39,868 nt of DNA from Candidatus Omnitrophota bacterium (GTDB taxonomy: Bacteria; Omnitrophota; Gorgyraeia; S143-82), in contig WGAY01000016.1 in assembly GCA_015494585.1 (NCBI GenBank), positions 1 through 39,868 of the forward strand. The letters are read 5' to 3'. A model generated the notes under the pieces. The model ran no database searches. It saw only the letters and a program-made list of their open reading frames with translations, and was not told the origin of the DNA. Positions within the stretch are counted from its first letter, which is position 1. Each line of letters starts with the position of its first letter. The position numbers and the translations under genes are program-made. Shown here piece after piece: positions 5,288-12,623 of the stretch.

Positions 5288-6562
5288 ATGGAGTTAGGAT
5301 TTATGAAGAAAGGGAATCTGCCTAAGATAGACAAGAATATATGGTTGCTGGCCTGGACGAGTCTATTAAATGACATATCCAGTGAAATGATTATGCCTAT
5401 CCTGCCGATGTTTCTTCAGTCGCTGGGAGCGGGGGGAATAGTGGTGGCAGGCTTGGGTGGACTGCGGGACGGTCTAGGAAATATTCTCAAGATGTTCTTT
5501 GGTTACATCTCGGACAGTAGGGGCAGGCGCAAGCCGTTTATTGTAACTGGATACCTATCTTCTTCTATATGCAAGCTCCTTTTAGCGGTATCCAGATCCT
5601 GGCCCTGGGCGGTGGTATTTACCCTGCTTGAGAGGATAGGTAAGGGGATGCGCAATGCCCCAAGGGATGCCTTGATAGCCGAGTATATGCCACACCACGA
5701 GGGGATTGGCTTCGGTCTGCACAGGATGATGGACACTACCGGCGCAATACTGGGGTCTCTATTGGTGTTGGTCTTGTACTGGATCCTAAGGCTTGACTTT
5801 CGTATTCTTATAATCATTGCGGCAATCATTGGTTTTCTAACGATGATACCACTGGTGAGGTTAAAAGAACCCCAGCGGCCTTATGAAGAGACTCAGCAAG
5901 AGGCCCATCGGACTATGACGCTGGCCTTTAGTCTGAAGAAACTGCCTAGAAAGGTGCAGTTGTTTATCCTGATAGCTACTATATATTATCTGGGAGAGCT
6001 TAATTATATGCTCTTTATCTCGCGAGCAGAGTTTATGGCCTTTGGAAAGTACAGGGTCCTTGCGCCTTTGGCGTTTTATGTGGCCTTTAATATATTTTAT
6101 GCGGCCCTTTCTATGCCGTTTGGCATATTGTTTGACAGGATCGGTGGCAGGCGTACCATCGGATTAGGATATCTGCTTATGGCGATTACTATGCTGGGAT
6201 TTGTGTTCTTTAAACCGATGTTTGGATTTTTGCTGTTCGCCTTATACGGAATTGCAAAGGCATCGGTCCAGGGTAATCACATCGCCTATGTGGGCAGAAT
6301 GGCGCCCGAGGACCTTAAAGGCACGGCTATTGGGACCTTTCAAACGATGATAGGGATTGCTATGATCGTCGGCAATACGGTGGCTGGTATTATATGGGAG
6401 CACATAGGCCTTAAGTGGGCATTTGTTTACGGATTTTCTATGATAGTGGGTGCACTGATTCTTTTACTGGCTGTATGGAGGATTATGGGCGGTCTAAAGG
6501 ATGAATCCGATATGCATCAAAATACCTCAGGGTCTATCTGGAAAGGCAAAAAGTTAACATAA
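5288..6562 (+). CDS. Major facilitator superfamily (MFS) transporter
   Basis: Multiple hydrophobic segments; SDSRGRRKPFI MFS loop motif; FDRIGGRRT repeat of the motif. Confidence 0.85.
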   Translation: MELGFMKKGNLPKIDKNIWLLAWTSLLNDISSEMIMPILPMFLQSLGAGGIVVAGLGGLRDGLGNILKMFFGYISDSRGRRKPFIVTGYLSSSICKLLLAVSRSWPWAVVFTLLERIGKGMRNAPRDALIAEYMPHHEGIGFGLHRMMDTTGAILGSLLVLVLYWILRLDFRILIIIAAIIGFLTMIPLVRLKEPQRPYEETQQEAHRTMTLAFSLKKLPRKVQLFILIATIYYLGELNYMLFISRAEFMAFGKYRVLAPLAFYVAFNIFYAALSMPFGILFDRIGGRRTIGLGYLLMAITMLGFVFFKPMFGFLLFALYGIAKASVQGNHIAYVGRMAPEDLKGTAIGTFQTMIGIAMIVGNTVAGIIWEHIGLKWAFVYGFSMIVGALILLLAVWRIMGGLKDESDMHQNTSGSIWKGKKLT

Positions 6563-6579
6563 TATATATTATGCGAAGT
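6552..6579 (-). other. dif: Putative dif site (XerC/XerD chromosome dimer resolution site)
   Basis: AGTTAACATAA-TATATA-TTATGCGAAGT. Against the reverse complement of dif as recalled: about 23/28 to E. coli and about 24/28 to B. subtilis, with the 11-6-11 architecture preserved, at the sole convergent gene junction. Confidence 0.85.
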
Positions 6580-6581
6580 TG

Positions 6582-6599
6582 AAATCCTCTGAGGGATTT
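6582..6599. terminator. Hairpin beside the dif-like site; possible bidirectional terminator
   Basis: AAATCCT-CTGA-GGGATTT: 7-bp stem (one G-U pair) and 4-nt loop between convergent genes; no clear U-tract. Confidence 0.4.
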
Positions 6600-6711
6600 A
6601 TAGTATAGATTTTAAGTAGTACCTATAGTAGCATAGTAAGTATCTATATAGCTGGTAAGGTTTGCCACATTAGCGTTCCATTAGAGTTTAGGTAGTTTAT
6701 AGAGTCATATT

Positions 6712-7854
6712 CTACCGTAGTTTTGTTAGTATCTCCCCCAACTCTTCCCACGCCGACATATTATCTAGAGTGAGTGAGATTCTAAGTCTGCTAGTGCCTT
6801 CTGGGACGGTTGGTGGACGGATGGCGGGCACAAAGAAGCCCTTTTCCTTTAGTATATCAGCGGCACCTAGGGTGGTTTTATCATCACCCAATATGAACGG
6901 CACTATCTGAGATGGTTTGCTGGATTGGCCTTCTGGGAAAAGCTGTCTATGAAAATCTTGAATCTTATTTCTGTATATATTGAGCAATCTTTCAAAGTCC
7001 TTATCAGTTTTGTAGAGTTTCATAAGTGCATCTACTGCCATAAACAACATAGGCGGCGGTGCGGTGCTAAAGATAAATCCCCGACAATGGTTGATAATCT
7101 TATCTATATATTCTTGCCTATCCACGCACACATAGGCCCCCCATAGGCCAAATGCCTTTCCAAAAGTGCCTACCAATATATCGAATTTATCTAAGGCTGG
7201 CAGCTCCCATATTCCTGTGGAATGGGCCTCGTCTATGTATAGATGGCAATTGTATTCTTTGGCCAGAGCTGCCAGGTTGGTTGTATCGGCGAAGTCCCCC
7301 TCCATGCTAAAGAGTGTTTCGCTGATTATCCATGCCTCTTTATATTTTCTGCGGTATTTTTTCAGTTGTCTTTCTAGATCAGATAGGTCATTGTGCCTAT
7401 ATCGCCTGAAGCTTGCCCCAGATATAAGAATGCCGTCCAGTATGCTGGCATGGACCAGTCTATCCGCAAATATAATTGTTTCATCCTCTATCAAGGCCTT
7501 TATCAGGCTAATGTTTAGCTGGTAGCCAGAGGAGAAAAATAATGCATCTTTTTTCCCTTTGAATGCTGCCCACTTTTTCTCGACTTGACGATAATAATCC
7601 CTATTTCCGCTTAACAGACGGGAGGCAGTAGATCCTAAACAGCCCTGTTCTCTGAGCCTATCGATCAGATACATCAATATATACTCATTATGGGACAGCC
7701 CAAGATAGTCATTAGAGGCAAAGTCCCACAACCACTTATCGTCGATGATGACCTTGCCAGCTTCCCTGGCCTTTATATTATATAGATTCCGCTTTCTATA
7801 CCCAGCAGCTTGCATAGAAAAAACATTCCACCGCTTTTTTATTATCCTATACAA
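6712..7854 (-). CDS. bioF: BioF-like 8-amino-7-oxononanoate synthase / alpha-oxoamine synthase (PLP, fold type I)
   Basis: FASNDYLGLS; GSTASRLLSGN; DEAHSTGIW; PLP-lysine motif GTFGKAFG. Confidence 0.85.
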   Translation of the reverse strand: MYRIIKKRWNVFSMQAAGYRKRNLYNIKAREAGKVIIDDKWLWDFASNDYLGLSHNEYILMYLIDRLREQGCLGSTASRLLSGNRDYYRQVEKKWAAFKGKKDALFFSSGYQLNISLIKALIEDETIIFADRLVHASILDGILISGASFRRYRHNDLSDLERQLKKYRRKYKEAWIISETLFSMEGDFADTTNLAALAKEYNCHLYIDEAHSTGIWELPALDKFDILVGTFGKAFGLWGAYVCVDRQEYIDKIINHCRGFIFSTAPPPMLFMAVDALMKLYKTDKDFERLLNIYRNKIQDFHRQLFPEGQSSKPSQIVPFILGDDKTTLGAADILKEKGFFVPAIRPPTVPEGTSRLRISLTLDNMSAWEELGEILTKLR

Positions 7855-8686
7855 GTTTTATTTTCTTACTTCTCGTCGAATGGCATCCTATGTTTACCGC
7901 CAGTGGCAGGCCGGCGATATGTGTCGGGGCTGAAAGTATGTTCAGGCCCAGTATGGTCGGACCTTCTCCCAGCCCCAGCACTCCTATCCCAGATGCATTA
8001 ACGGCCTTGATTACTGCCTTGCGTATTTCAGGATATCTGGCGCGATATCTAGGTCCTATTGGCAGGGTCAGGGCCTTTTTCGCCAGGAAGGCTGCCTTAT
8101 CTGAGGTCCCCCCTATCCCTACCCCCACAACGAATGGCGGACAGGCTGCGGGCCCTGCAGAAACTATTGAATCAACTATCTCAGAAACCACCTCTTGAGG
8201 CGTGGCAGTAGGAAGCATCATCTTTAGTCTGCTCTTATTCTCACTCCCAAAGCCTTTTGCTAGTACAGTTAGGTAGGAGCTCCTTGCAGAGGTATACTCT
8301 GTATGAATTATAGCCGGACTAAAGCCGCTCTTTCCCCTGTAAACTGGGTCCTTAACTATAGATGCACGAAACCCCCCATCCTTATAGGCCCTGGCTACGG
8401 CCTTATTTATCTCTTTTTCTATATCTCCCCTGATGCATGTATTCCTGCCAAGTTCTAGAAAAACAACCACCATTCCAGTATCCTGGCAAAGCGGAAGGCC
8501 TTGCTTTTTAGCGATAGATGCGTTTTCGAGAAGTATCCCCAAAAACTCTTTGGCAGCTGATCTGCGCCTCATTCCTATATACGCCTCTTTTAAGGCCGAA
8601 AGGATATCAGACCTTAGCTTCAGGTTTATCTCGATACAGCTGTGATAGACGGCCTCGGCTATCTGTCCTGCATCTAGTATAATCAC
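7847..8686 (-). CDS. Class I fumarate hydratase / tartrate dehydratase-type alpha subunit
   Basis: LPLCQDTGMVVVF; GGFRASIVKDP; AGPAACPPFVVGVGIGGTSDKAAFLAKKAL; NIGCHSTR. Confidence 0.92.
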   Translation of the reverse strand: MIILDAGQIAEAVYHSCIEINLKLRSDILSALKEAYIGMRRRSAAKEFLGILLENASIAKKQGLPLCQDTGMVVVFLELGRNTCIRGDIEKEINKAVARAYKDGGFRASIVKDPVYRGKSGFSPAIIHTEYTSARSSYLTVLAKGFGSENKSRLKMMLPTATPQEVVSEIVDSIVSAGPAACPPFVVGVGIGGTSDKAAFLAKKALTLPIGPRYRARYPEIRKAVIKAVNASGIGVLGLGEGPTILGLNILSAPTHIAGLPLAVNIGCHSTRSKKIKLV

Positions 8687-8687
8687 T

Positions 8688-9341
8688 TTACTGCTCCTTG
8701 AGCTGTTTTATAGCCTCGACAGGGTCTGAGCTAAATACGAAACTCCCTGCTATTATGAAATTTGCTCCGGCATCCTTGACTATCTTTGCGGTGTAGTGGT
8801 TTATCCCACCATCTACTGCAATGTATCCTCCGAAGCCCTTCTCCTTCAGCCAGCCAATCTTGTAGACATTGCTGTCCATAAAGGTCTGTCCACCAAAGCC
8901 TGGTTCAACTGTCATAATCAAGATCATATCCAGATCATCTAGGTAAGGCAAAAGGACCTGTGGATGAGTTGCAGGTTTTAGAGATAATCCAACCTTCCGT
9001 CCATGGTCCTTTACTTTATCTATAAATTCCTTCACTTCCTCATCTGATTCTAGTGCCTCTATGTGAGCGGTGAGTATTTCTGCTCCCGCAGACAGAAATG
9101 CCTCTGAGTACTTCAAGGGATCTGTTATCATCAGATGCACATCCAATGGTTTGGTAACGATTGAGGATATGTGTTGGACTATAAATGGTCCCAAAGTGAT
9201 GTTTGGGACAAAGTGTCCATCCATGACGTCGATATGCCAGGCATCAACGAGGCCTTCTATCGCCTCTAATTGTTTCTTAAGGCAGGAAAAATCAGCGGAT
9301 AATAGAGATGGCGCAATAATAACTTTACTTTCCATTTTCAC
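8688..9341 (-). CDS. rpe: Ribulose-phosphate 3-epimerase
   Basis: IAPSLLSADF; WHIDVMDGHFVPNITLGP; MTVEPGFGGQ; VDGGIN. Confidence 0.96.
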   Translation of the reverse strand: MKMESKVIIAPSLLSADFSCLKKQLEAIEGLVDAWHIDVMDGHFVPNITLGPFIVQHISSIVTKPLDVHLMITDPLKYSEAFLSAGAEILTAHIEALESDEEVKEFIDKVKDHGRKVGLSLKPATHPQVLLPYLDDLDMILIMTVEPGFGGQTFMDSNVYKIGWLKEKGFGGYIAVDGGINHYTAKIVKDAGANFIIAGSFVFSSDPVEAIKQLKEQ

Positions 9342-10219
9342 ATTCTAGCGATAACTGCCTTAACTAAGGCCAAAAGCTTAGGTGCACTGTCATTTGCAAT
9401 GGCAATAATCTTCTCCAAGGTTGCAGGTTCAAGTGCATCTGGGAGGCACATATCCGTGATGACACTTATCCCCAATACTTTTATCCCGCTGTGCACTGCA
9501 ACGATTACCTCAGGCACGGTAGACATTCCGACTGCGTCTGCTCCGATTGCCCTAAAAAACCTGTACTCTGCCCTTGTTTCAAGATTTGGACCAGTAACAG
9601 CTATGTATACCCCCTTCTTTACTGGTATCCTCTCATCAAGGGCAGCATTCTCTGCCAATTCTATCAGCTCTCTGGAGTATGGTTCCGACATATCAGGAAA
9701 TCTAGGCCCCAGTTCGTCGTAATTTGGGCCTATAAGAGGATTGACCCCCATAAGGTTTATGTGATCATCTATTATCATGATATCGCCGGCCTTAAAGAGC
9801 GGATTTAGCCCACCAGCCGCATTCGATATTATAAGTTCCTCTATACCTAGAAGCTTCATAACTCGAATAGGATATGTAATCTGTTCTAGGGACCAACCTT
9901 CATAAAAGTGGAATCTGCCTTCCATCACCAGAACATCCTTGCCTTCTAGGCTACCAAAGAGCAATTCCCCTTTGTGGCTCTCTACAGTAGAGACAGGGAA
10001 ATGGGGTATATCTTTATATTCCAAAACGAACTCTGTATCTACATAATCTGCAAGATTACCCAAACCTGTTCCAAGGACTATCCCAATTTTAGGTCTTATA
10101 GAAACTCTCTCTTCGATAAACGACTTGGTCTCTCTTAATTTATTTAACAGGTCCATATCTGTCCCTCCTGTCTTGAATCGAGTATCGAGAAGAAATATAT
10201 TGCCTTCTCCATCATCCAC
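9338..10219 (-). CDS. Purine-nucleoside phosphorylase (PNP family)
   Basis: GIVLGTGLG; HFYEGWSLEQITYPIRVMKLLGIEELIISNAAGGLN; DDHINLMGVNPLIGPN; RFFRAIGADAVGMSTVPEVI. The start may be downstream (MDLLNKL). Confidence 0.92.
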   Translation of the reverse strand: MDDGEGNIFLLDTRFKTGGTDMDLLNKLRETKSFIEERVSIRPKIGIVLGTGLGNLADYVDTEFVLEYKDIPHFPVSTVESHKGELLFGSLEGKDVLVMEGRFHFYEGWSLEQITYPIRVMKLLGIEELIISNAAGGLNPLFKAGDIMIIDDHINLMGVNPLIGPNYDELGPRFPDMSEPYSRELIELAENAALDERIPVKKGVYIAVTGPNLETRAEYRFFRAIGADAVGMSTVPEVIVAVHSGIKVLGISVITDMCLPDALEPATLEKIIAIANDSAPKLLALVKAVIARM

Positions 10220-10253
10220 TTTAGGCCCTCATTATATCACATAGTCCCTATTC

Positions 10254-10694
10254 TTATAGGTCATTATATAATGAAATAATATCTTTCATAAAGAAATTCC
10301 TGCACAACTGTAACATAGGCCATATCACAAAGTCGCGTTCCTTTATCTTTGGATGAGGGATCTTAAGGTCAGGATTGTCTATAGTTATATCGTCGTAGAT
10401 GAGTATATCTATGTCGATGGTTCGGGGTAGATTCTGTCCCTTGGTTTTTCTGCCTAATATTCTCTCTATACCTTGCAATTGCAGAAGAAGCCTCTGGGGA
10501 TGGAGTAATGTATAGACAAGGCAAACTGCATTTATAAATTCATAGACTGCCCCATACATAGGAGGGTTGTAATAGAAATCCGACACTCCGCCAAGAGAAG
10601 TAAAGGGAAGTTTCCCTATCAATTCAAGGGCCAATCTTATATTTTTCTCGCGGTTACCAAGATTACTACCAAGCCCCAGAAATACTCTACTCAT
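10254..10694 (-). CDS. folK: 2-amino-4-hydroxy-6-hydroxymethyldihydropteridine diphosphokinase
   Basis: FLGLGSNLGNRE N-terminus; LGRKTKGQNLPRTIDIDILIYDD; IPHPKIKERDFV. Confidence 0.94.
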   Translation of the reverse strand: MSRVFLGLGSNLGNREKNIRLALELIGKLPFTSLGGVSDFYYNPPMYGAVYEFINAVCLVYTLLHPQRLLLQLQGIERILGRKTKGQNLPRTIDIDILIYDDITIDNPDLKIPHPKIKERDFVIWPMLQLCRNFFMKDIISLYNDL

Positions 10695-11891
10695 TTAATC
10701 CAATAAATGGCCCATTTTTTTCTTCTTAGTCTCCAGATAGAATTCGTTTTCCTGTTTTTTACCGACGACTATCGGAACCCGTTCAACTATCTCCAGGTCA
10801 TATCCTTGCAATCCTACTATCTTTCTGGGATTATTCGTCATAAGGCGCAGTTTTCTTATCCCAAGCTCTTTTAATATCTGGGCGCCAATACCATATTCGC
10901 GCAAATCAGCCGGAAATCCCAGGGCTATATTTGCATCTACTGTATCCATACCCTTATCCTGAAGGTGATAGGCCTTGATCTTATTGGCAAGCCCTATTCC
11001 TCGTCCTTCTTGTGACATATACAGAATAACCCCTTTCCCCTCTCTATCTATACGCTGCATTGCGGCATGGAGTTGTTCTCCACAGTCACACCTGCGAGAG
11101 TGGAATATATCGCCAGTCATACATTGAGAATGAACTCTTACCAGGACTGGCTCATCCTCTGACCAGTTGCCCTTCCATATGGCCAGGTGTTCTTGACCAT
11201 CTATAAGGCTGCGAAATATGGCCACATTAAACTCTCCAAAATCAGTGGGCATCTTGGCATCGGCGATCCTTTCTATAAGCCGTTCAGTCCTGCGTCTATA
11301 CTCTATAATGTCTGCCACCGAACACATAGATAGTTTATGCCTGCGGGCAAATACCTCAAGATCGGGCAGGCGTGCCATAGAACCATCCTCATTCATAATC
11401 TCACATATGACCGCCACAGGCTCAAGCCCTGCAAGCCTCATTAGGTCTATTGCCGCCTCAGTATGACCCGCACGCACCAAGACCCCTCCATTTACTGCCC
11501 TGAGGGGAAATACATGCCCAGGCCGCACTAAGTCTTCTGGGCGTGAATCAGGCGAACACAATACCTCTATGGTTCTGGATCTATCGTGTGCAGATATCCC
11601 CGTTGTTATGCCAACTGCCGCATCAACCGACATCGCCCAGGCCGTGGCAAACTGATCGCGAGTGGAATCAGGGGAAGAAAGAATAGGGATATCTAGGGCC
11701 TTGAGTCTCTCTTCGGTCATAGGAACACATATAAGCCCTCTGCCTTCTTTGGCCATAAAGTTTATTTTCTCAGGTGTCGCATAAACGCCAGCAACTATCA
11801 GATCACCTTCGTTTTCCCTGTCTTCGTCATCTACAACGATTACAACCTTGCCTTGTTTTATATCGGATAAAACCTTCTCAATGCTATCCAT
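10695..11891 (-). CDS. ribBA: Bifunctional 3,4-dihydroxy-2-butanone-4-phosphate synthase / GTP cyclohydrolase II
   Basis: DDEDRENEGDLI (RibB) and RVHSQCMTGDIFHSRRCDCGEQLHAAM / LYMSQEGRGIGL (RibA). Confidence 0.96.
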   Translation of the reverse strand: MDSIEKVLSDIKQGKVVIVVDDEDRENEGDLIVAGVYATPEKINFMAKEGRGLICVPMTEERLKALDIPILSSPDSTRDQFATAWAMSVDAAVGITTGISAHDRSRTIEVLCSPDSRPEDLVRPGHVFPLRAVNGGVLVRAGHTEAAIDLMRLAGLEPVAVICEIMNEDGSMARLPDLEVFARRHKLSMCSVADIIEYRRRTERLIERIADAKMPTDFGEFNVAIFRSLIDGQEHLAIWKGNWSEDEPVLVRVHSQCMTGDIFHSRRCDCGEQLHAAMQRIDREGKGVILYMSQEGRGIGLANKIKAYHLQDKGMDTVDANIALGFPADLREYGIGAQILKELGIRKLRLMTNNPRKIVGLQGYDLEIVERVPIVVGKKQENEFYLETKKKKMGHLLD

Positions 11892-11901
11892 ATATTGCTC
11901 C

Positions 11902-12534
11902 CTATAGTCGTGTTTTCTTCTCTTGGCCCTTTATTAACCTATTTATATTTCCCCTATGTCTATACAGAATTAGAATACTTATTATAACACCCATTATCTT
12001 TATAGCTAGGGGCTTTATAAAAAAGATAGAACCAACCAACACCAGTAATGACATAATGATAGAGGCTATAGAAACAAAGCCGGTCAGCCGATAGGCAAGA
12101 AGCCAAGAAAAAAGGCCTGCCAGTAGTATGTAAAATAGAGTATGGTAAAAAAAAGATACCCCCAGAAAAACACCTATCGCCGTTGCAACCCCCTTGCCTC
12201 CCCTGAACCCAATGTATAGAGGGAAGATATGGCCAATTATCGCAAATAAAGCAGCTGAAATGATGGCCATACTATTATCTGGGAAAACTATCCCTGCAAT
12301 AAAAACAGAGATAAGTCCCTTAAGGAGGTCTAAGAATAGTACAAATCTGCCCCACAGTTGGCTATTTAAGACTCTCGCTACATTCGTAGCACCTATATTG
12401 CCACTACCTAGCTCTCTAATATCTTTGCCCAATTTTAACTTTACTAGGATGTATCCAAACGGGATAGAACCCAATAGATATGGTACAACTCCAACGAAGA
12501 ACATTGCTGTGATGCTGTTATCTAAAACGAGCAT
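11902..12534 (-). CDS. plsY: Acyl-phosphate glycerol-3-phosphate acyltransferase PlsY
   Basis: LLGSIPFGYIL; LGSGNIGATNVARVL; FRGGKGVATAIGVFLG; multispanning hydrophobic profile. Confidence 0.95.
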   Translation of the reverse strand: MLVLDNSITAMFFVGVVPYLLGSIPFGYILVKLKLGKDIRELGSGNIGATNVARVLNSQLWGRFVLFLDLLKGLISVFIAGIVFPDNSMAIISAALFAIIGHIFPLYIGFRGGKGVATAIGVFLGVSFFYHTLFYILLAGLFSWLLAYRLTGFVSIASIIMSLLVLVGSIFFIKPLAIKIMGVIISILILYRHRGNINRLIKGQEKKTRL

Positions 12535-12623
12535 ATAATCTCTCCTCCTCGTTTAAGTCTTTTTGGCCGAAATTATCTTTTAAAGTTTATTTCCTAGCCT
12601 CTCACCTATTCCAATGAGATCCT

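Follow-up and report, generated by a model that had tools for sequence, protein, structure and literature searches.

In the established model from E. coli and B. subtilis, FtsK joins two copies of dif at the septum and activates strand exchange first by XerD and then by XerC, and chromosome dimers are thereby resolved. Sites of this kind have been predicted near the GC-skew shift-point in 16 phyla, including Elusimicrobia and Verrucomicrobia (Kono et al. 2011, PMC3025954). The Omnitrophota are absent from the phylum table of that study, and a literature search, which cannot prove absence elsewhere, returned no published description of dif in this phylum. Here we analysed a stretch of 39,868 nucleotides (the window), which is contig C16 of the draft metagenome-assembled genome of an Omnitrophota bacterium (1.53 Mb, 80 contigs, 94% complete) and in which an earlier note, made from the letters alone, had proposed a dif site. 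Our results support that reading through a single copy, a nearby skew peak, encoded protein partners, and conservation in a congener and across the class, and we consider it almost certain that this 28-mer is the chromosomal dif of the bacterium.

The 28-mer, AGTTAACATAA-TATATA-TTATGCGAAGT, was found exactly at 6552-6579, where it had been claimed (Table 1). Like known XerC/XerD-type dif sites, to which it is similar, it has a 6 bp centre flanked on either side by an arm of 11 bp, and we assigned the putative XerD and XerC arms after E. coli dif. The identities given in the earlier note also hold, with 23/28 positions shared with the reverse complement of E. coli dif and 24/28 with that of B. 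subtilis dif. Judged by base composition, matches of at least 23/28 to the former are expected 2.9e-3 times in the 1.53 Mb genome and 7.7e-5 times in the window, and matches of at least 24/28 to the latter 3.1e-4 and 8.2e-6 times, respectively; both resemblances are far beyond chance. Against the class consensus built in this analysis the site scores 25/28 (equally good matches expected in 1.53 Mb, 1.8e-5), although this consensus is not independent of the search. Nowhere else in the window did a dif-like place come close to the score of the site, the second-best being the reverse complement of the site itself (20/28).

Table 1. Coordinates of the dif site and its neighbouring features in the window.
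Feature	Position	Strand	Remarks
MFS transporter gene	5288..6562	+	PF07690, 1.5e-40; stop codon in XerD arm; same arrangement in G003, ~80% nucleotide identity
dif site, 28 bp, AGTTAACATAATATATATTATGCGAAGT	6552..6579	+	XerD arm, centre, XerC arm; based on exact sequence, single copy and conservation
Putative XerD-binding arm, AGTTAACATAA	6552..6562	+	Doubles as last codons and stop of MFS gene
Central 6 bp, TATATA (predicted strand-exchange region)	6563..6568	+	Layout by analogy with E. coli dif
Putative XerC-binding arm, TTATGCGAAGT	6569..6579	+	TTAT invariant in class
Block from bioF-like to plsY-like gene	6580..12600	-	Adjoins dif here; homologous DNA on another contig, beyond gatB, in G003
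bioF-like gene (8-amino-7-oxononanoate synthase family)	6712..7854	-	TIGR00858, 1.8e-98, below curated cut-off; convergent to MFS gene

A chromosomal dif is present once per chromosome and is conserved in relatives. At up to three mismatches, the 28-mer has a single match in the 1.53 Mb, 94% complete draft, with none for a reversed control. In the congener G003, whose flanking DNA is ~80% identical, the 28-mer recurs without a single change, again at the 3' end of the MFS gene. Using a pattern in which four variable positions were opened and three mismatches allowed anywhere, we recovered a close variant in 51 of the 99 genomes searched (own genome included), compared with zero matches for the reversed pattern. 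All but three of the 51 contain one site each. The remaining genomes (G027, G033 and G088) have two dif-like sites each, which may reflect a second replicon, a mobile element, chance or contamination; the contamination of G033 is estimated at 8%.

Positions 3-4 and 6-11 of the XerD arm are the same in all 51 class sites, as are ACATAA and TTAT on the inner sides of the two arms; the first base of the centre and the outer part of the XerC arm are variable. The constancy is somewhat inflated because the search pattern itself fixed most columns. The class centre is mostly GATATA, with its first base variable, and the outer half of the XerC arm is mostly TTATAGGAAGT or TTATAGGACGT; GC at positions 22-23 is common to the site and its counterpart in G003. 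Nearly all sites in relatives are intergenic, mostly between convergent genes. Exact matches to a degenerate form of the site were, among the matches listed, mostly from Candidatus Omnitrophota and Bacilli, with scattered others. In two congeners, G001 (10 contigs, 96% complete) and G002, no clear dif was recognised. A looser 23-base pattern, run in 22 genomes, gave some matches with 0-2 mismatches that look real, but we did not use it as evidence because matches to the reversed control were about as numerous as real ones in several genomes.

As the earlier note had described, the site occupies a convergent junction, between the end of the MFS gene (+) at 6562 and the end of the bioF-like gene (-) at 6712, and its XerD arm overlaps the MFS coding end, which reads AAA AAG TTA ACA TAA. 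The arm supplies the final AAG TTA ACA TAA both here and in G003. The MFS gene of G001 is not followed by dif, and its protein stops at about the same point (SIWLNKRLKV versus SIWKGKKLT in the window), so dif probably lies at the natural end of the gene. A rival reading is that of an AT-rich palindrome arisen by chance at a convergent junction, for example as part of a transcription terminator, and the core of the site is able to form a weak hairpin, with a second stem (AAAUCCU...GGGAUUU) at about 6582-6599. However, the terminator and hairpin readings were rejected, given a fold energy no better than that of shuffles (z -0.68) and a terminator scan that returned no terminator-like site. A palindrome of this sort also fits poorly with the non-palindromic outer arm bases kept across much of the class and with 51 site-bearing genomes against zero reversed-control matches, and we give a chance origin next to no credence.

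The recombinases and the translocase on which a dif depends, xerC, xerD and ftsK in the wording of the earlier note, are all present in the genome. A profile search with PF00589 identified exactly two genes, one best matched by the XerD model TIGR02225 (311 bits, slightly below the curated cut-off of 329.6) and the other by the XerC model TIGR02224 (329.7 bits, slightly below the curated cut-off of 335.15), and both proteins can be aligned over nearly their full length to the E. coli XerD structure (PDB 1A0P). FtsK is spread over the ends of two contigs, C63 (4TM, alpha and the start of the motor) and C17 (motor and gamma, with a gamma domain match of 5.4e-30), and since the two overlap in nearly identical sequence we read them as one gene split by assembly. 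From E. coli and B. subtilis we infer XerC/XerD binding, the assignment of the arms, recombination and control by FtsK at this site. By this analogy, once recombination had joined the two sister chromosomes as a dimer, FtsK, located at the division septum, would pump DNA until the two dif copies met; XerD, on 6552-6562, and XerC, on 6569-6579, would then swap strands over the 6 bp centre and return the chromosomes to monomers.

We also compared the site with GC skew, computed on stretches (the window, contigs and site flanks) of the 80-contig draft. The earlier note had suggested checking whether the site coincides with the cumulative skew maximum. In the window cumulative skew stands at 1012 at 6551, peaks at 1035 at 7066, ~0.5 kb from the site, and declines beyond, although skew and gene direction flip together there, so that the change in skew cannot be separated from the change in coding strand. 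On contig C24 of the same genome, cumulative skew reaches its minimum at 41039, inside dnaA, whose neighbours we take from sequence reading, rather than family search, to be rnpA, yidC, parA/soj and parB. The minimum at dnaA and the peak in the window are the expected ori/ter pair of switches.

The orientation of the site to the skew switch is fixed, the XerD-arm flank having the higher skew in 17/17 genomes examined. In 13 of these the skew changes sign from one flank to the other, the exceptions being G080, G012, G029 (site 1.9 kb from a contig end) and G056. In a broad set of loci, with some genomes counted twice and Bacilli included, the skew was positive for 92 of 116 left flanks and negative for 89 of 113 right flanks. 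The genome of G056 is a single 1.97 Mb contig that begins with dnaA; its site lies at 797.6 kb, or 40% of the contig from dnaA, and its skew switch near 950 kb, ~150 kb apart. Both flanks of this site (L017:1501-1528; G056:C1:797592-797619) have the same skew sign. We looked for a better dif-like site at the G056 switch and found none; rearrangement would explain the offset. Counts of the KOPS-like GGGNAGGG in stretches of G056 were few and leaned with the skew. As to the earlier claim that a dif here would place the replication terminus in the window, the site lies near the skew switch, where FtsK and XerCD would act, but the exact meeting point of the forks is not implied. Replication forks need not meet at dif, as argued by Kono et al. 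2011 (PMC3025954).

Mobile elements that use Xer recombinases carry dif-like sites of their own, which raises the question of whether the 28-mer is a native dif or instead an attachment scar or a plasmid-type Xer site (cer/psi, or that of a XerCD-integrating element). A class-type site lies close to the end of one viral-collection contig (L263), and the 6 kb block adjoining the site in the window differs between sister species. Yet no second dif-like site was found in the window or the genome, the neighbours of the site are housekeeping genes, and phage records gave no match to the locus. A site common to many families, at the skew switch and in fixed orientation, is also hard to reconcile with an element, and we judge such an origin very unlikely. 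Among viral-collection contigs, a class-type dif occurs in L263 (28.4 kb) alone, at 28-55 and beside HTH and methyltransferase-like genes, and the DNA there may come from the host or from the edge of a provirus.

The adjoining block contains bioF-, fumA-, rpe-, pnp-, folK-, ribBA- and plsY-like genes and lies between dif and fumB/murA-like genes, so that the two fumarase subunit genes are separated by other genes. In G003, a fumarate-hydratase-beta-like gene and then a murA-like gene follow within ~0.2 kb of dif, whereas ~6 kb intervene in the window; the G003 counterpart of the bioF-plsY block is on C50, beyond gatB. In the genome studied here, gatB is on C80 and adjoins a carB-like gene. Part of these gene names, around the block and gatB, is presumed from sequence reading rather than family search. 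That DNA beside dif, such as this block, changes places with other parts of the chromosome in the genus, possibly aided by the terminus location or by Xer activity, while dif stays fused to the MFS coding end, is a speculative idea that we regard as improbable. At the contig edge, positions 1-150 hold the truncated end of a PD-(D/E)XK (PDDEXK_9) gene, and a 63 bp stretch within it and just beyond (94-156) shares 90% identity with the last part of the dif-bearing contig of G003 (5367-5429). This suggests a gene family present in repeated copies, at which assemblies break.

Taken as the native chromosomal dif, the site belongs to a well-known kind and is otherwise unremarkable, in a phylum that the table of Kono et al. 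does not list. It adds one more phylum to the known spread of XerCD/dif and leaves the understanding of the system unchanged. In a phylum known chiefly through draft assemblies of metagenomes, its practical value is to anchor the terminus region, and the consensus, AGTTAACATAA followed by mostly GATAYA, then TTAT, two variable bases and GAMGT, can be used for orienting drafts. The site closely resembles the dif of Bacilli, including B. subtilis (XerCD-type, CodV/RipX), which has the same 28 bp 11-6-11 layout and 24/28 identity; AGTTAACATAATATATATTATAGGAAGT-type sites were found verbatim in Bacilli, among the matches listed. The two differ at positions 22-23, which are GC here and AG there, and in the MFS stop codon that lies within the XerD arm here. 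With E. coli dif and its XerC/XerD/FtsK system, the locus shares the layout, 23/28 positions and an XerC arm beginning with TTATGCG; two Xer proteins and an FtsK with a gamma domain are likewise common to both. It departs from E. coli dif at the outer ends of both arms and at one centre base, and its activity is a prediction.
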